In this document: positions 34,584 through 44,652 of the stretch, one piece after another
Layout: each line of letters begins with the position of its first letter
Numbering within the stretch: position 1 is the stretch's first letter
Origin: Paracoccus spongiarum
GTDB lineage: Bacteria; Pseudomonadota; Alphaproteobacteria; Rhodobacterales; Rhodobacteraceae
Direction of reading: 5' to 3'
DNA length: 64,000 bases
NCBI RefSeq assembly: GCF_030732095.1
Contig: NZ_JAVAMQ010000003.1
Coordinates: forward strand, 186,001 to 250,000
Made by a program: the position numbers and the translations under genes
Notes under the pieces: model-generated
What the model was told of the DNA's origin: nothing
The model's database searches: none
What the model saw: only the letters and a program-made list of their open reading frames with translations

Positions 34584-34978
34584 CGGTTCATCCCCGCGCG
34601 TGCGGGGAACAGGAAACCGGACCCGGTTACCCCTCGGCCGACACCGGTTCATCCCCGCGCGTGCGGGGAACAGATCAGATCGACAAAGCGTTCGGCCAGC
34701 AGCGTCGGTTCATCCCCGCGCGTGCGGGGAACAGTTCGTGTCCTTGACCGGGTAGCAGCCGCATCTGGGTTCATCCCCGCGCGTGCGGGGAACAGATTGA
34801 CTGGCTCAACGTCGCCATCTGGGGCGCCGGTTCATCCCCGCGCGTGCGGGGAACAGCCTGACGATCAAGACCGACGAGCGAGAATACGCGGTTCATCCCC
34901 GCGCGTGCGGGGAACAGCGTTGGTCCCGCCATGAACGATCCGGCGCCACCGGTTCATCCCCGCGCGTGCGGGGAACAG
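34584..34978 (-). CRISPR. Type I-E CRISPR array, 7 repeats and 6 spacers
   Basis: Seven 29-bp repeats start at 34584, 34645, 34706, 34767, 34828, 34889 and 34950, an exact 61-bp period with six 32-bp spacers. Read on the minus strand the repeat begins CTGTTCCCCGC and ends GGGGATGAACCG, the I-E pattern with a stem CCCCGC/GCGGGG for Cas6e. The array follows cas2 in the same direction, so the leader-proximal repeat is 34950-34978. Six repeats are identical; the one at 34767 differs only at its first plus-strand base, which is the last base of the repeat in transcription direction. None of the spacers visibly matches the phage genes at 1-4715 or other sequence in the window. Confidence 0.98.
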
Positions 34979-35056: not shown

Positions 35057-36279
<1,223 letters not shown>

Positions 36280-36282
36280 GGT

Positions 36283-37034
36283 TCAGGCTCGGCGGATGAG
36301 CATGAGCCCGCAGCCGAAGCCCCGCGCCCGTCCGAACCCCTGCCCGAGCTTTTCCACGAAGACCGCAGGATCGGTCACGGTCAGGGAGCCCGACATGTCC
36401 AGGATGCCGTATTGCGGCTGCCCCTTCCGCCGCCCGACATGGCCCGGCAGTGCGGCGGTAGAGTAGTCGCCTACCGTCACGTCATCCGGCACGAATCCGG
36501 CCTCCACGCCCTGACGACCGAGCCATTCCGTCGCCGCGTCCTGCGCCATCGACAAACGCTGCTTCGGGCGCTCGCTTTCCACGCCCGGGGGCAGGTCGCG
36601 TTGGCCGGGAAGCGGGCGCAGGCGGTCCATGACCAGGTCGATATGCTTTCGCTTCCGCTTACCGTTGGGGGCCAGTTCCGTAGACTTGACCGTTCGCGTG
36701 GCGTTAGCCCGCAGGGTGAAGGCAAGCCGGTCGCCCGGCTCCAGCGCCGGAGCAAGCTCGCGGGTTTCCGGCGACTCGAAGAGACGCGAGGGCGCGGGCG
36801 GCCGGTGCGACAGCAGCGTGAAGCGCCCGCCGCCCTCGTCGCGCCAAAGGAAGTCGCGCGTGCGGTCCGGCGTGTCGGCGAAGAGCGTCCAGATCAGCCG
36901 GTGATGCGCATCGCTGCGGCACCCGCGCTCGCGGGTGTCCATGCCGCCGGCATGCCGGGATGCCGGATCGAGAAGCGGGCGCAGCGCGTCCAGGTCCGGG
37001 CCGTGCGCCAGGCGCAGGCGAGACAGCCAAAGCG

Positions 37035-37038
<4 letters not shown>
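36283..37038 (-). CDS. cas6e: Cas6e (CasE/Cse3), crRNA endonuclease
   Basis: Cas6e cuts pre-crRNA at the repeat stem and stays bound as part of Cascade. From ATG 37038 it has 251 residues. The early His pair in SDAHHRLIWTLFAD (H45, H46) fits the catalytic His region of the family, and the Gly-rich GQGFGRARGFGCGLMLIRR at the end is the RNA-binding loop. The start overlaps the cas5e stop as ATGA. In-frame sequence further upstream lies inside cas5e and is not used. Confidence 0.95.
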
Positions 37039-39316
<2,278 letters not shown>

Positions 39317-39320
<4 letters not shown>

Positions 39321-40765
39321 GCTGCTGCCTCCTTCTTCTTTCCGGGAAGCGGGAGCACCAACTCGGCGAAGGCTTTTCGGCCGAGCGGGGTGAAGCCATC
39401 GAAAGCCATCGCCAGCCCCTTGTGTGCGTCCACGATCGCCTTCTGATCCGGCACCCTGCGATCGGCGAGCCCATCCATCGCCAGTCGTTCGAAGATCGCC
39501 ATGCCGACCCGGCGCATGTCCTTGAGCCATCGGCGCGCGACATCCTCGGCGGGCTCGGTCGCCAACTCCAGCAATCGAGCCTCGAACGGGCCCTGGGTAC
39601 GGGTGTAGAATTCCTCGCGCGCGGCTTCACGCGCCTCGCCCCGGGCTTGAACAGGCGCCAGCGCGCCGCGCAGGGCCGCTGCCAGATGCTCTGCCGCACC
39701 GACCATGCCGTTGGCCCGAACCGCCTTTTTATCAGGCAGGTTGACCAATGGCGGACGGGCGTGGACGTAGTCGAGAGCCTTCATGTTCTCCATCGCCCAT
39801 CCGGCAACGATCAAATTGGCGGCGCGCTCCGGGCTTCGACTTTCCCACGCGCGGACCATCGCAGGGCGCTCCCGCAGGCCGTCCATGGCCTGCACGGCTA
39901 CGCCGAGCCAGTGGCGATAACCGAAAAACCCGGCGCGCGGCCGGACGGGTAACGGATCATCCCCGGCCTTCTGCCGGTAATAGCCGGTCAACGGGTGCGT
40001 CCAGCCAGTGTACCGCGTGCCGTTCGGACGCTGAATCACGGCAGTCACCCGATCCCCATCCGCCACCAGCCAGAACCTCCGGGGCATGCCGAAGAACACC
40101 TCCGCCCGATGGGCCTGGTGCGGGTATCGCGAGGCCCCGCCCTCAGACGTGACGGTGGATCGCGTCCAAGGCAAATCCTCGGGCCGAGCAGGCCGGCCGT
40201 CCGGCACGTTGGCCCAGACGAGTGGCCAGAGGCCGCCGCCCGGGTCGACGAGCACTGTCATAGGCCCCCCGCCCCGGAGCGACGTGAGGTTCCCCCGCCC
40301 GCCCGACGGGGCCTGGGTCTGCATTGTGTAAAGCGCCATGGCCGCCAGCGGCAGGTCGAGCGCCTGATAGCGCCCCTCACGGACGGTCAGCGCGCCGCCC
40401 TCTCCGCCCGAGTCGATGAACAGGAGGTCGGTGGCCCGCGCCTCGCCTGCAAGCCCGCCCAGTTCCTGCATGAACCGGGGCCCGTCGCCCAGCAGATCGA
40501 ACGCCGGTGCGAAGGGCATCAGACGCGAGCGAAGCCGTTCAGCGTCCGGTTCTTGGCGGTCCTGCCAGTCGTCCACATGGGCGGGCGGATCGGCGAGCGC
40601 CACCAAGCCGATGAGCAGTTCAAGGCAAGCAATGTTCAGGTCTGGGCGTGGCCAGTCGGGACGAAGAAGCGCAGAATCGGCCATCTGCCACGGCGCGATC
40701 CGCCGGCGATCACCAGATGTGTCGATCACCGGGATCCAGGCATCGGAAATGAGATTCAGGGGCAT
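39317..40765 (-). CDS. cas8e: Cas8e (CasA/Cse1), Cascade large subunit
   Basis: Cas8e reads the PAM and recruits Cas3. The 482 residues begin MPLNLISDAWIPVIDTSGDR, the Cse1 signature, and continue with NIACLELLIGLVALADPP and the PAM-side FMQELGGLAGEARATDLLF region. The C-terminal four-helix bundle is present. ATG 40765 is preceded only by a weak AGG site and a run of T. It is the first gene of the seven-gene Cascade-adaptation operon; its predicted promoter lies about 215 nt upstream, leaving a long structured 5' leader. Confidence 0.95.
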
Positions 40766-40801
40766 GAAAAAAGCCTGTGTGTCAGGACTGCCGAAGTCAA
40801 A

Positions 40802-40854
40802 CCTTGCCTGACCGTAAGTGCCGCGGTAATATTGGCGCGCTCAGGCAGGCAAGG
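40802..40854 (-). promoter_or_regulatory. Inverted repeat in the cas8e 5' leader
   Basis: Nine-base arms (plus strand CCTTGCCTG at 40802-40810 and CAGGCAAGG at 40846-40854) enclose 35 nt. On the minus-strand RNA the first arm begins 2 nt after the tiny frame ends, and the second arm is followed by TTT. It could end or attenuate transcription before cas8e. Confidence 0.4.
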
Positions 40855-40855
40855 G

Positions 40856-40884
40856 TTATATCAGACCCATCTTCGGAACCTCCT
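40856..40884 (-). CDS. Four-codon reading frame MGLI with perfect Shine-Dalgarno (CreT-like candidate)
   Basis: On the minus strand AGGAGG (40884-40879) is followed, after 8 nt, by ATG GGT CTG ATA TAA (40870-40856). The ribosome site is the strongest in the cas region, much better than that of cas8e itself. The frame ends with AUA, a very rare isoleucine codon in a genome of this GC. CreT RNA toxins known from CreT-CreA systems have this layout: a strong ribosome site and a few rare codons that trap a scarce tRNA. A leader peptide controlling the downstream inverted repeat is an alternative. Expression is unproven. Confidence 0.45.
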
Positions 40885-40892
40885 GTGTCGGT

Positions 40893-40922
40893 GCTCTCTG
40901 AACGCTGCAACGATCAGAGAGC
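40893..40922 (-). promoter_or_regulatory. Perfect 9-bp hairpin in the cas3-cas8e gap
   Basis: GCTCTCTGA (40893-40901) and TCAGAGAGC (40914-40922) flank a 12-nt loop. A third inverted repeat, CGCCGAG/CTCGGCG, spans 40941-40970. All lie between the predicted promoter and cas8e, so the leader RNA should be structured; as DNA they could be operators. Confidence 0.45.
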
Positions 40923-40977
40923 TGCCTTTGGGCCTACCAGCGCCGAGTCAGGGGAAGCCTTGGCTCGGCGCGTGTGT

Positions 40978-41006
40978 ATTTGAGCAGAATCAGTGCCCCC
41001 TGTCAA
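40978..41006 (-). promoter_or_regulatory. Predicted promoter of the cas8e-cas2 operon
   Basis: On the minus strand a perfect -35 TTGACA (41006-41001) and TCAAAT (40983-40978, four of six consensus bases) are exactly 17 nt apart, giving a start near 40971. It is the best promoter match in the gap. The guide target described next covers its -35 box. Confidence 0.65.
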
Positions 41007-41031
41007 TGATGCGCTGTCGCGCTCTTAGCTT
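40997..41031 (-). promoter_or_regulatory. Predicted target of the mini-CRISPR guide, with AAG PAM
   Basis: On the minus strand AAG (41031-41029) is followed by CTAAGAGCGCGACAGCGC (41028-41011). The mini-CRISPR spacer begins CTAAGGGCGTGTCAGCGC. They agree at positions 1-5, 7-9, 11 and 13-18, with mismatches at 6, 10 and 12; beyond 18 the match is at background level. The full 32-nt protospacer would span 41028-40997 and cover the -35 box at 41006-41001. AAG is a canonical I-E PAM in E. coli, and positions 6 and 12 are flipped out in Cascade and need not pair. Confidence 0.65.
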
Positions 41032-41121
41032 CGGTTCATCCCCGCGCATGCGGGGAACGGTTCGGCGCACTTCAGCGCTGACACGCCCTTAGTGGGTCAT
41101 CCCCGCGCAGCCGGGGATGAA
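41032..41121 (-). CRISPR. Mini-CRISPR: two divergent repeats around one 32-nt spacer (CreA/CreR-like)
   Basis: The repeat at 41032-41060 differs from the main-array repeat at 2 of 29 bases, and the one at 41093-41121 at 8 of 29. They are exactly 61 bp apart, enclosing a 32-bp spacer (41061-41092), and have the same orientation as the main array. On the minus strand the degenerate repeat comes first. Both keep a hairpin, shortened to 5 bp in the degenerate copy. The cas3 stop codon lies inside that copy, so the unit forms the 3' end of the cas3 message. No third repeat follows at the next 61-bp step. A dedicated promoter is not obvious; read-through from cas3 or a promoter within its 3' end is likely. 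Confidence 0.85.
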
Positions 41122-43610
41122 AACAGCAAGCCCTCTTTGCCGCTGTAATGCAACCCCTCTGCGATCCTTCCATCCTGATTGACCGGGCAGACCGTCACCG
41201 CCTTGCGCCTCCAGTCCGGCCAGCCCGTCGTAAACGCCACGATTTCCGGCGCGCCCTGGTCGGGCAACCCGGAGGAGGCCAGGCGCGCTGCCGCCGCGGT
41301 AAGCTCGGAAAGCGCGAGGCTGTCCGCCAATGTCTCGCCCTCCGCCCAAGGGGTCAGGCGACCGGCCTGCCAGCGGGCGAGGACCAATCGCAGCACCGGC
41401 TGCCCAAGTCGAGTCGGGAACTCGCTGTCTTCCCATCCCTCCGCCCCGTCCCGATAGCCCAGCGCGAAATCGAGTTTGTTCCGCTCGCCCTGCGCCCGCG
41501 CCGCATGGTCCTTGCCCTCGGCCTCCATCTCGGCCCTCACCAGCGCTGCGGGGACATCGCCCGCGTCCAAGCCATGAACCGCCTCGATCAGGCCGCGCAA
41601 GTCACCCGGCGGCTCGATCTTGCCGGCACGGAACAGCACATCGGCCGTCCGCCATTGCAGTCCCGGCGGGTAGACATGCGCTCCGGCCCCCAGCACGGGC
41701 TGGAGCCAGCGCGCGTCACGCACGTCTTCCGGGTCCGCGGACAACACATGAAGAACAGGCTCGGGGACGGAGCGCGACCCGTGTGGGCGCAGGTCCATGT
41801 GCCGCCAGAGCCGGCCCATCCGCTGGATCAGCGCCGCCATCGGGGCGAGGTCCGACACCATCACATCGAAATCCAGATCCAGGCTCGATTCCAGGATCTG
41901 CGTCCCGACAAGAACCCTGGCTCCCCGGTCTTTGCTGCTCTTCCCGAAAAGGTCGAGCGCAAGGGCCTCGTGTCGCTTTCGATCGGCCAACGCAAAGCGG
42001 GCATGGAGCACGTCCGCCACGACTCCTTTTTCCCGCAGTGCCTGGACAGCGGCGATCGCCTCATCGACCGCATTCCGGATCCACACGCAGGCCGCGCCTT
42101 CAGCGACCTGCGTGGCGAGCAGGTCGACGACCTCCTCGGGGGAGCCGATTCGCCTGACCCGGACGGCACCCCGATCCCCGGTATGACAGGGCAGTTCCGG
42201 CGCTCCGCCGCCCACCACCGTGAGCGCCGGATAAGCCCGATCCGTCAAGGGCGCCGCTGGCCGGTCCGCACCATCCTCGAAGGCCGCCACCAGCCGCGCC
42301 CGAAGGCCGAGCGGCAGCGTCGCAGTCAGCAGGATGGCCGAGCCGCCCATTGCGGCATGGATGCTCAGCAGCGTGACGAGCAACTCCTGAAGATAAGGGT
42401 CGCCCATCTCATGGACCTCATCGACAATCAGGATCTTCGACGAGAGACCATAGAGCCGCAGGCATGAATGTCGGGTCGGCAGTACGGCAAGCAGCGCCTG
42501 ATCGACAGTGCCCACGCCAACGTCGGCAAGGAGCGCCCGGCGCCGATCCTCCGCCAGCCATTCCGAGCAGCCAGGCTCGTCCGGGGATGGCCGGTCACGT
42601 CCGATCAGGTCGCGAAACCCGACCGACAGCCCCGCCCGCCCATGCGCCAGGGTGAGCGATGGTCCACTTTCGAACATCCTGCCGACGCAATCCCTGTTGC
42701 GCAGGAACATGGCGTCCGCTGTCGCCATCGTTGGCAGGGCAAAGAAAAGGCCGCGTCCCTTTCCTGCCGCCATCATCCGCTGCGCCAGGATCAGCGCAGC
42801 CTCGGTCTTGCCGGCGCCCGTCTCGTCCTCGATCACGGCGAGCATCGGACCCTCACAAAGCGCCACGGTCGAGCAAGCTTCCTGCATGGGCCGCAGGTCG
42901 AAGTCGAAAAGATCTGCAGTTGAAGCTGCGGGCCAGGAAAAGCCTGCTTTTTCTACCGCCGATGCTGCTTGGGGCCGCGTCTTTGCAAGGTATTCAGCCG
43001 GGCCGAGAATGGGTGAATGCGCGCCAAACCAATTTCCGTTCGACCCGATCCAATCCGCCGCGGCGATCAGACCGGGCAACCACCACGACAGTCGGATCAT
43101 CTCGTCACGGGTCAGATCGGCCAGCGAGGCCTGCGGCCAAAGATTGGAAAACTCCTGGATCACTGATGCAGCATCCGCGAGCGACTCCGCGCCTGCGACA
43201 TCCAGCATGCGCCCGATCTCGTCGGCCGAGGCCCTCGGCGGGCGGCCGTGGTGCCCCGCCGTCGCGGCATAGAGCGAGAACCGCCATGTCTGGCGAACGT
43301 CGCCCCACACCCTCGCCAAAAGCGCATCGTGATGGCGCAGCAGCGCCTCGGTTACCTTCCAGTGGGAGCCGAAATGCTGCGGCGTACCGTTCAGAATGCA
43401 ATCGCGGAACGCACCCCCGATCTTGCCGAGGTCATGCAGGGCCGACAGCAGAACAAGCGCTTCTTTGCGATGCTTTGGCATATCCCAGGTTGCGAGCATC
43501 ACTTCGGCAACCGCGGCAACGTCCAGCATGTGATAGACAGCCGCGTGGTGCAATCCGCCCGGCTCCTGCGGGCTCTTGCCGGGCCAATTTTCGATCCATT
43601 CGATCGTCAT
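41097..43610 (-). CDS. cas3: Cas3, type I-E nuclease-helicase
   Basis: Cas3 nicks and degrades DNA marked by Cascade. From ATG 43610 it has 837 residues (an in-frame start at 43688 would add 26). HD-nuclease residues are H21-H22, H59-D60 in LLSALHDLGKIG, AGHHG at 119-123 and D187. Helicase motifs are DETGAGKTE (262-270), DEVH (397-400) and QRMGRLWRH. The C-terminal domain is complete. The last seven residues and the stop are encoded by the degenerate CRISPR repeat at 41093-41121. It is separated from cas8e by 331 nt and so can be expressed independently. Confidence 0.96.
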   Translation of the reverse strand: MTIEWIENWPGKSPQEPGGLHHAAVYHMLDVAAVAEVMLATWDMPKHRKEALVLLSALHDLGKIGGAFRDCILNGTPQHFGSHWKVTEALLRHHDALLARVWGDVRQTWRFSLYAATAGHHGRPPRASADEIGRMLDVAGAESLADAASVIQEFSNLWPQASLADLTRDEMIRLSWWLPGLIAAADWIGSNGNWFGAHSPILGPAEYLAKTRPQAASAVEKAGFSWPAASTADLFDFDLRPMQEACSTVALCEGPMLAVIEDETGAGKTEAALILAQRMMAAGKGRGLFFALPTMATADAMFLRNRDCVGRMFESGPSLTLAHGRAGLSVGFRDLIGRDRPSPDEPGCSEWLAEDRRRALLADVGVGTVDQALLAVLPTRHSCLRLYGLSSKILIVDEVHEMGDPYLQELLVTLLSIHAAMGGSAILLTATLPLGLRARLVAAFEDGADRPAAPLTDRAYPALTVVGGGAPELPCHTGDRGAVRVRRIGSPEEVVDLLATQVAEGAACVWIRNAVDEAIAAVQALREKGVVADVLHARFALADRKRHEALALDLFGKSSKDRGARVLVGTQILESSLDLDFDVMVSDLAPMAALIQRMGRLWRHMDLRPHGSRSVPEPVLHVLSADPEDVRDARWLQPVLGAGAHVYPPGLQWRTADVLFRAGKIEPPGDLRGLIEAVHGLDAGDVPAALVRAEMEAEGKDHAARAQGERNKLDFALGYRDGAEGWEDSEFPTRLGQPVLRLVLARWQAGRLTPWAEGETLADSLALSELTAAAARLASSGLPDQGAPEIVAFTTGWPDWRRKAVTVCPVNQDGRIAEGLHYSGKEGLLFSSPAARG

Positions 43611-43717
43611 GTCTGGGCTCTTGTGTGCATGGGGCCGAACGCCCAGTCCTCTATGCGCAACATGTCCGGTCAATGAGACCGACGGCAAGGCACAACCGTT
43701 GCCTTGACTTCAACCGG

Positions 43718-43885
43718 ATCTGCATATCTTCGACGGAGCCTGGCCGCCGTCCGGAACCGCGTCGTGCATTTGCGGAACTTCGCCATACTCGTCGCGTGCT
43801 TGCGGAAAACATCGGACGTTGGCATTTCGCCCTCCTGCTCCGTCGGCATCCCGATGATCTGATCGGCCGCGAACCTCGGTCGCTT
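43718..43885 (-). pseudogene. Relic of an IS3-family transposase OrfA
   Basis: The minus strand reads KRPRFAADQIIG, then EQEGEMPTSDVFRKH and AKFRKCTTRF. This follows the OrfA helix-turn-helix of IS3-type elements (KRPRF..EQIIG, ADVCRKHGIS, FYKWKA.FG) for about 45 residues, without a start and with a shift near the end. No OrfB or terminal repeats are visible nearby. It lies between cas3 and the molybdenum genes, marking a likely insertion boundary. The rest of 43689-44097 shows no gene. Confidence 0.55.
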
Positions 43886-44097
43886 TGTGGTCCGCCTCTT
43901 GGGTCGGTGGGAAGGAACCGGTCTCAGGTCAGGGCAGTCCGCCAACTTGAAGGAGACCACGAAGAGCGGTTGGGGGTAGGACCCGGGCAGATTTTCAGGC
44001 AGAAGCCAGACGACAATAGGCCGTTCGCTGAATCTGTCCTGAGGGGTGCCTTGGTGTCCGCCACGCCCTCGCATTCGGGCGGGCCGATCGGCCTTGA

Positions 44098-44652
44098 TCA
44101 GGGCAAGGCGTGGCGGAGGTCCTCGATCGTGTCGATGTCCAGAGCTTCCGCAGAGGGGATCGGCAGCAGGCGTGCGGGGGGCAGGGCGGCGATCAGGGCG
44201 CGGGCGCCGTGGTCGCCCTCGGACAGGGTGAGGGCGTGGGCGAAATCCCCGGCCGCGATCAGGGCGGGCGGAAGGCGTCTTGTGCCCTGAAGGCAGGCGG
44301 CGGTGCCGTGCATCCCGCTCAGCCGGTGCAGCAGGCCGGGCGTCACATTCGGCATGTCGCCGAGGCACAGCACCAGCCCCCGTGCCTTGCGGCGCCGTGC
44401 CTCGCGCAGCGCGGCGCCGAACGAGGCCGACATGGGCAGGCCGGTCCCGACCGACAGGCAGCGCATCCCGGCCGGCAGCACAGCGGCCACCGACGGGGAG
44501 GACACCACCGCGATCACCATGTCGCAGCCCGCCGCGCACAGCGCGCGGGCGGGCCAGGTGACCAGTGGCTCGCCCCGCCACGCAGCCAGCAGCTTGTCCT
44601 CGGCGCCGAATCGGGTCGAGGCGCCGGCCGCCAGCAGGGCGCCCATCAGCAT
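44098..44652 (-). CDS. MobA/MocA-like nucleotidyltransferase
   Basis: A protein of 184 residues of the NTP_transf_3 family. It starts MLMGALLAAGASTRFGAEDKL, the nucleotide-binding Gly-rich loop, and has LVLCLGDMPNVTPGLLHRL (the metal-binding Asp). Such proteins attach CMP or GMP to the molybdopterin cofactor; beside XdhC and a molybdenum hydroxylase, a MocA-type CMP transfer is the best guess. It starts on the last base of the xdhC stop. A second ATG two codons in is possible. Confidence 0.8.
   Translation of the reverse strand: MLMGALLAAGASTRFGAEDKLLAAWRGEPLVTWPARALCAAGCDMVIAVVSSPSVAAVLPAGMRCLSVGTGLPMSASFGAALREARRRKARGLVLCLGDMPNVTPGLLHRLSGMHGTAACLQGTRRLPPALIAAGDFAHALTLSEGDHGARALIAALPPARLLPIPSAEALDIDTIEDLRHALP

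Follow-up and report, generated by a model that had tools for sequence, protein, structure and literature searches.

This analysis indicates that a CRISPR-like unit at 41032-41121 of the window (the whole 64,000-nt stretch of Paracoccus spongiarum DNA that was analysed) is probably a CreA-like guide, which would send the cell's own type I-E Cascade to the predicted promoter at 40978-41031 of a likely toxic, CreT-like RNA at 40802-40971. The observations that carry this reading are the anatomy of the unit, the match between guide and target, the uniqueness of that match in the genome, the co-variation of guide and target among relatives, and the co-occurrence of the guide with a mini-ORF. The known kind is thus CreTA, and what is new here, as far as the literature covered extends, is its type I-E, alphaproteobacterial form.

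Guide unit, target and predicted promoter in the cas3-cas8e gap

The type I-E locus of the window runs on the minus strand in the order cas3, cas8e, cas11, cas7e, cas5e, cas6e, cas1e, cas2e and array, and the guide unit with its adjoining target lies in the gap between cas3 and cas8e (Table 1). The first-pass annotation, made from the sequence alone, had described two degenerate type I-E repeats 61 bp apart around a 32-nt spacer; this start-to-start distance and the coordinates were confirmed on the minus strand. When 30 shuffles were compared to the array repeat, the best reached 18/29, versus 21/29 for PsiR1 and 27/29 for PsiR2, and by reading both repeats retained the CCCCG/CGGGG arms. The repeat-spacer-repeat RNA folded better than 200 of 200 shuffles (z -4.2). 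The unit therefore has the form of a crRNA-like guide gene with degenerate repeats linked to a cas locus, as in CreTA. An ordinary CRISPR array was considered and rejected, since PsiR1 and PsiR2 are unlike one another and neither is identical to the array repeat; the resemblance of the leading 18 nt of the spacer to its own neighbouring sequence also speaks against an ordinary array.

Table 1. Features of the type I-E locus and its cas3-cas8e gap, in minus-strand order (window coordinates)
Feature	Coordinates	Strand	Basis or remark
cas3	41097..43688	-	I-E locus annotation
PsiR1, degenerate first repeat of the creA-like guide unit	41093..41121	-	21/29 to array repeat
PsiS, 32-nt guide spacer	41061..41092	-	
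PsiR2, second repeat	41032..41060	-	27/29 to array repeat
Target PAM AAG	41029..41031	-	directly after PsiR2
32-nt protospacer	40997..41028	-	positions 1-18 match spacer 15/18
Predicted creT promoter: TTGACA 41001-41006, 17 nt, TCAAAT 40978-40983	40978..41006	-	read from sequence
Hairpin 1, at predicted 5' end of short RNA	40940..40971	-	
Hairpin 2, whose perfect 9-bp stem is the longest in the gap	40893..40922	-	
Ribosome-binding site AGGAGG	40879..40884	-	
Mini-ORF AUG GGU CUG AUA UAA, CreT-like RNA core	40856..40870	-	
Hairpin 3, directly after mini-ORF	40802..40854	-	region conserved in Haematobacter
cas8e (cse1)	39317..40765	-	PF09481, TIGR02547 matches
Remaining I-E operon: cas2e, cas1e, cas6e, cas5e, cas7e, cas11	35057..39530	-	
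I-E CRISPR array, seven 29-nt repeats	34584..34978	-	

The spacer and the target at 41011-41028 agree at 15 of 18 positions behind the AAG, with mismatches at 6, 10 and 12, just as had been proposed earlier; within the seed (positions 1-5 and 7-11), nine of ten positions match and position 10 is mismatched. The pair is unique in the genome, as the pattern CTAAGNGCGNGNCAGCGC has only two occurrences in 3.93 Mb, namely the spacer and the target. Of Markov-1 sequences derived from 50 loci, 1 of 1000 contained a PAM-flanked pair that matched at 14 or more of the 15 unflipped positions.

The TTGACA begins at protospacer position 23, in line with the earlier claim that the protospacer covers a -35 box; the -10 box is poor, and a consensus-rule promoter scan of 40700-41400 returned no sigma-70 site. 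The scan misses the predicted creT promoter because its -10 candidate, TCAAAT, fits poorly. The promoter call rests on TTGACA, on the spacing and on the recurrence of TTGACN in relatives, where 12 of the 17 guide-bearing loci described below have this motif within protospacer positions 21-38 and the other five (L015, L030, L032, L049 and L052) lack it near the target. The -35 box of the window starts 241 nt before the cas8e start, and the targeted promoter precedes cas8e on the same strand, with the CreT-like element between them. The earlier proposal that cas8e is the gene regulated by the guide thus did not find support.

Two minor results concern the surroundings of the gap. A 303-aa ORF (43670-44581, minus strand) lies just upstream of cas3, overlaps it by 19 nt and gave no match in Pfam, NCBIfam or PADLOC. 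An Rfam scan of 40600-41300 yielded two sub-threshold matches only, which were taken as chance.

Recurrence and co-variation of the design among Cas8e loci

The Cas8e loci surveyed came from a contig profile search (8 loci), whole genomes and plasmids. Cas8e was present in 21 of 394 genomes of the family, 13 of 390 of the order, 8 of 385 of the class and 15 of 125 of the genus, these sets being overlapping and each including the window's genome, and 12 of 40 matching plasmid records entered the survey. After the removal of repeats and of loci whose Cas8e start was not matched, 63 loci, including the window, were counted; those dropped before counting were L009 and L010 (the window's own place), L037, L043 and L054 (duplicates), and L026, L029 and L058 (Cas8e start not matched). 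The 13 genus loci were added without a duplicate check, and among them L067 and L070, both guide-negative, look alike. As the surveyed loci are related, the counts below are not independent events.

An earlier, looser pair scan gave 15 of 50 loci, some of them false matches caused by simple repeats in L003, by repeats within coding sequence in L020, L028 and L041, and by genuine array repeats in L056, and it also picked up 24 of 127 control segments; handle and PAM requirements were therefore added. The resulting loose scan demanded a handle-like octamer (5/8), an exact 5-base seed recurring 35-190 nt on behind a PAM (AAG, ATG, AGG or GAG) and at least 8/10 seed positions, and it detected 17 of the 63 loci, versus 367 of 12,600 null sequences and 12 of 185 control segments. 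The PAM in these 17 guide-bearing loci was AAG in 14 and ATG in 3. The strict scan, with a handle of at least 6/8, AAG or ATG as the PAM and at least 9/10 seed positions, retained 16 of 63 Cas8e loci, compared with 3 of 18,900 Markov sequences and none of 185 control coding segments. These data demonstrate that the guide-target design in the window is not chance. The other 46 of the 63 loci carry no such guide by scan, including L001, whose Cas8e is the second closest to that of the window (69% identity); four loci scored guide-negative appeared guide-like (L041, L050) or decayed (L042, L044) by eye.

The match of each guide with its own target was 9.47/10 across the 17 loci, whereas the 272 cross-locus pairs had a mean of 2.82/10 and a maximum of 7. 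Positions 13-17, which lie outside the selection, matched in 54 of 85 cases. Counted per position over the 17 loci, matches numbered 4 at position 6, 5 at 12, 17 at 7, 16 at 8, 15 at 9, 12 at 10, 16 at 11 and 13 at 13, with positions 1-5 imposed by the scan and 7-11 partly imposed. The match rate at positions 6 and 12 is near the quarter expected without constraint, which bears out the earlier statement that these two spacer positions are unconstrained. A Cascade guide does not read every sixth base, and the freedom of positions 6 and 12 is a Cascade signature. Similarly, a seed of positions 1-5 and 7-11 suffices in a haloarchaeal CreTA, positions 6 and 12 being free (PMC8501985).

Guide and target have changed together despite a homologous downstream element, both between the window and Haematobacter and among L038, L069 and L071. 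When the window and Haematobacter were compared in blocks of 40 columns, identity was 47-53% from the middle of the spacer through the target and promoter. Across the creT element, as far as column 320, it was 68-85%, and 25 consecutive nt spanning the ribosome site and start are identical. In L030, L038 and L040, just 11 of the first 18 positions match. Free drift of the spacer from the promoter, named beforehand as the outcome that would speak against a functional guide, was not seen in the 17 loci bearing the design.

The position of the cas3 stop codon was recorded as a separate observation. In the window, it sits in the 5' handle of PsiR1, ATGACCCA, and ends 4 nt before the spacer. PsiR1 contains it in 11 of the 17 guide-bearing loci (window, L002, L015, L019, L030, L038, L049, L052, L064, L065 and L069), and it ends 3 nt past PsiR1 in L025 and L071. 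In the window and four other loci, the handle's own TGA serves as the stop and lies downstream of the site where Cas6e is expected to cut, from which arises the idea that guide maturation from the cas3 transcript would leave a cas3 mRNA with no stop codon.

The CreT-like element between target and cas8e

Between the targeted promoter and cas8e, the window contains a 170-nt element made up of hairpins, a strong ribosome site, a four-codon ORF and a further hairpin, so that, as in CreTA, an RNA with start signals, a mini-ORF and a stem-loop is encoded downstream of the target. For the 215-nt interval as a whole, the gain in folding over shuffles is only modest (z -2.5; 3 of 200 shuffles fold equally well), and its fold pairs part of the ribosome site. 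The mini-ORF contains one rare codon (AUA), and no other ORF of 30 codons or fewer between the target and cas8e has a ribosome site that passes the 5-of-6 filter. No canonical terminator was found between the short RNA and cas8e in the window; therefore, read-through into cas8e is possible. The target-cas8e interval has no minus-strand ORF of at least 80 aa. CrePA, in which the guide controls a protein toxin, was rejected, as there is no protein ORF between the target and cas8e.

The same element is present in a Haematobacter massiliensis plasmid locus, whose Cas8e is 78% identical to that of the window, with AUG GGU CAG CUU UAA as the mini-ORF; its codons GGT CAG CTT include none of the five rare codons scored (ATA, AGA, AGG, TTA and CTA). 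Altogether, 14 of the 17 guide-bearing loci were assigned a mini-ORF element, including three judged by eye (L005, L019 and L069), where the ribosome site is too weak for the 5-of-6 filter. Under the combined automated rule, the element was detected in 9 of 17 guide-bearing loci and in none of the 46 guide-negative loci, with 5 of 1890 in the null. The mini-ORFs are diverse: AUG AGA AUC UUA AUA GCC UAA in L059, AUG ACC AUC AGG AUA UAA in L052, a 17-codon ORF with AGA AGA in L005 and, 106 nt before cas8e, AUG GCC CAA UUA UUA UUA CAA AAC UGA in L030. The three consecutive UUA codons of L030 might sequester a leucine tRNA; the UUA codon was not met in the CreT descriptions that were compared.

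Of 90 mini-ORF codons, 22 were rare, versus 248 of 3402 when these triplets were counted in the gaps around the mini-ORFs (binomial p 4e-7, a value that ignores shared ancestry); in 33 ORFs of the window, they account for 0.9% of 15,790 codons. All five are absent from the mini-ORFs of two of the 14 loci, L015 and L040. Each of the 14 loci has a perfect inverted repeat of at least 8 bp upstream of its mini-ORF, compared with 27 of 700 Markov sequences; such per-locus repeats with nulls were used in place of a covariance model because the MAFFT alignments, one of twelve creT regions and one of eight, mis-registered the hairpins by eye. A narrow CreT motif was found in 2 of 394 family genomes, both times next to cas8e with a guide, and it misses other mini-ORF loci of the set (L015, L019 and L030).

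Proposed mechanism, alternatives and related systems

If the pair is expressed as its arrangement suggests, the precursor transcript would probably arise by read-through from cas3, and Cas6e would cut it at both degenerate repeats. The guide would then pair at positions 1-5, 7-11 (9/10, with position 10 as a possible U-G wobble) and 13-18, and with pairing ending at approximately position 18, Cascade would be expected to stop RNA polymerase at the -35 box while leaving the DNA uncut by Cas3. Upon loss or blockage of Cascade, the short RNA would be made, and its combination of a strong ribosome site with a four-codon ORF that ends in AUA-UAA would trap ribosomes and a rare tRNA, resulting in growth arrest. 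Toxicity of this sort could follow the mode of archaeal CreT or that of the lambda bar minigene, and the toxicity mechanism is the weakest step for the window. The CreTA reading has against it the mismatch at position 10, the weakly fitting -10 box and the lack of a terminator; in one archaeal CreTA, the antitoxin effect was lost whichever of the ten seed bases was changed (PMC8501985).

With archaeal type I-B CreTA of Haloarcula hispanica and Halobacterium hubeiense (PMC8501985), the window shares two divergent repeats (mostly so in CreTA), PsiR1 being the more degenerate, as is described for CreTA (PMC9458426), and a mini-ORF with a stem-loop downstream (PMC8501985). Of the archaeal seed match at positions 1-5 and 7-11 to a PAM-flanked promoter, the window has the AAG, nine of the ten seed positions and a predicted promoter that fits the consensus only in part. 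Unlike the archaeal systems, the window is bacterial and type I-E, its guide is upstream of and co-directional with the target, and its mini-ORF has three codons after AUG, one of them rare, whereas the archaeal mini-ORF carries consecutive rare codons (AGA, AUA; PMC8501985) and the relative L030 carries a UUA run. In Acinetobacter type I-F CreTA, the gap between cas3 and the large-subunit gene csy1 similarly holds two repeats, a ribosome site, a mini-ORF and a hairpin, and CreT reportedly needs the ribosome site and hairpin; its 33-bp mini-ORF is divergent from creA (PMC10097628), while the window has a 15-bp mini-ORF co-directional with creA. The lambda bar minigene, AUG AUA UAA, is likewise a very short ORF ending in AUA-UAA and is toxic in cells short of peptidyl-tRNA hydrolase, but it is a phage gene that is not CRISPR-linked and has two codons versus four in the window (PMC8012679). 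Among the matches listed, titles and abstracts on CreTA, CreR and type I-E included no type I-E CreTA of Alphaproteobacteria.

The main alternative is CreR, whereby Cascade, directed by the guide, would repress its own cas8e operon, the interval being simply a long structured leader. This possibility draws on the position of the promoter, upstream of and co-directional with cas8e, with no canonical terminator between them, on reports of CreR in types I-B, I-E and V-A (PMC13131331), and on loci at the same site that lack a toxin element (L064 and L049, with targets 98 and 83 nt before cas8e; L041 is alike by eye). CreR guides are crRNA-like with a partial promoter match in the cas locus, type I-E being included, yet they are reported to be generally uncoupled from toxin genes (PMC12737573, PMC13131331), and the window has a CreT-like element, with a mini-ORF of predicted toxicity, directly downstream. 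A ribosome site, mini-ORF and hairpin that occur in 9/17 guide-bearing versus 0/46 guide-negative loci would be superfluous in a plain cas8e leader, and so would mini-ORFs rich in rare codons. Furthermore, L071 has a hairpin and T-run between the mini-ORF and cas8e, and L025 has, by reading, a second TTGACC-17-CAGCAT near cas8e. Since the interval contains a CreT-like RNA element and the -35 box is 241 nt off, CreTA is likelier than CreR, which we regard as unlikely for the window. The proposal of a CreR/CreA-type guide in the first-pass annotation is therefore retained as to the leading-part match with a nearby PAM-flanked promoter, but not as to cas8e self-repression of the CreR type, given the CreT-like element. 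Repression of cas8e by read-through is possible in the window as well.

A leader-peptide attenuator, in which the mini-ORF and hairpins would control cas8e by translation-coupled termination with the guide as a second layer, is improbable: it would suit an operon preceded by alternating hairpins and by a short ORF that has a strong ribosome site and often rare codons, but the rare codons vary by locus (ATA, AGA, AGG, TTA, CTA) and thus give no common amino-acid signal, and the automated rule finds the element in none of the guide-negative loci. A decayed two-spacer array, or mere accidental resemblance of its second spacer to the first, can practically be dismissed, because, although local duplication could leave an AAG and seed copy directly after PsiR2, the same layout recurs with unrelated but internally matching pairs in 16/63 loci versus 3/18,900, and among the first 13 positions the mismatches cluster at 6 and 12, which is not expected of decay.

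If the CreTA reading is correct, an RNA toxin would be set free once Cascade is lost or an anti-CRISPR blocks it, and the cell would probably be poisoned, a good share of alphaproteobacterial type I-E systems would be addictive, and CreTA would be extended to a new subtype with a new toxin set (AUA, AGA, AGG, UUA and CUA codons). In addition, a PAM and seed copy beside degenerate repeats provides a search rule, checked against nulls, for finding more such units. More tentatively, and with less confidence than in the CreTA reading itself, the cas3-cas8e gap of alphaproteobacterial type I-E loci might be a switchable guard slot, in which a guide co-evolving with its target controls either a minigene toxin (CreTA) or cas8e (CreR), with lineages switching between the two; the toxin of the window would then be a bar-like ribosome poison, and guide cutting would strip the cas3 stop, tying the guide supply to the Cas3 level.

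Guides with and without a toxin element share one slot in the surveyed loci, which suggests passage between CreTA and CreR; if so, the passage from toxin guard to cas regulator could be compared across loci at one syntenic site. In L064 (Paracoccus), the target starts before the homology-inferred cas8e start at the distance given above, with no toxin element, and the same applies to L049 (Roseomonas marmotae), where the annotated cas8e start is 18 nt further upstream than the inferred one. The units occupy the last 150 nt before cas8e in L064 and the last 160 nt in L049. These two loci may represent CreR, as perhaps does L041, in which a similar guide unit with a weaker PAM, AAA, was seen by eye in the last 190 nt before cas8e. 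The guide of L065 matches 16 of the first 18 positions, and its mini-ORF fails the filter, with only a decayed-looking AUG CCC UGA present. In L050 (Acidiphilium cryptum pACRY02), a guide-like pair, CGTGAAGACCTGTCATT / AAG-TGTGAAGATCTTTCATT, lies 290-160 nt before cas8e; its position 1 is mismatched, and it was missed by the scan. In L060, L061 and L063, which belong to the genus of the window, a CRISPR array lies directly upstream of cas8e.
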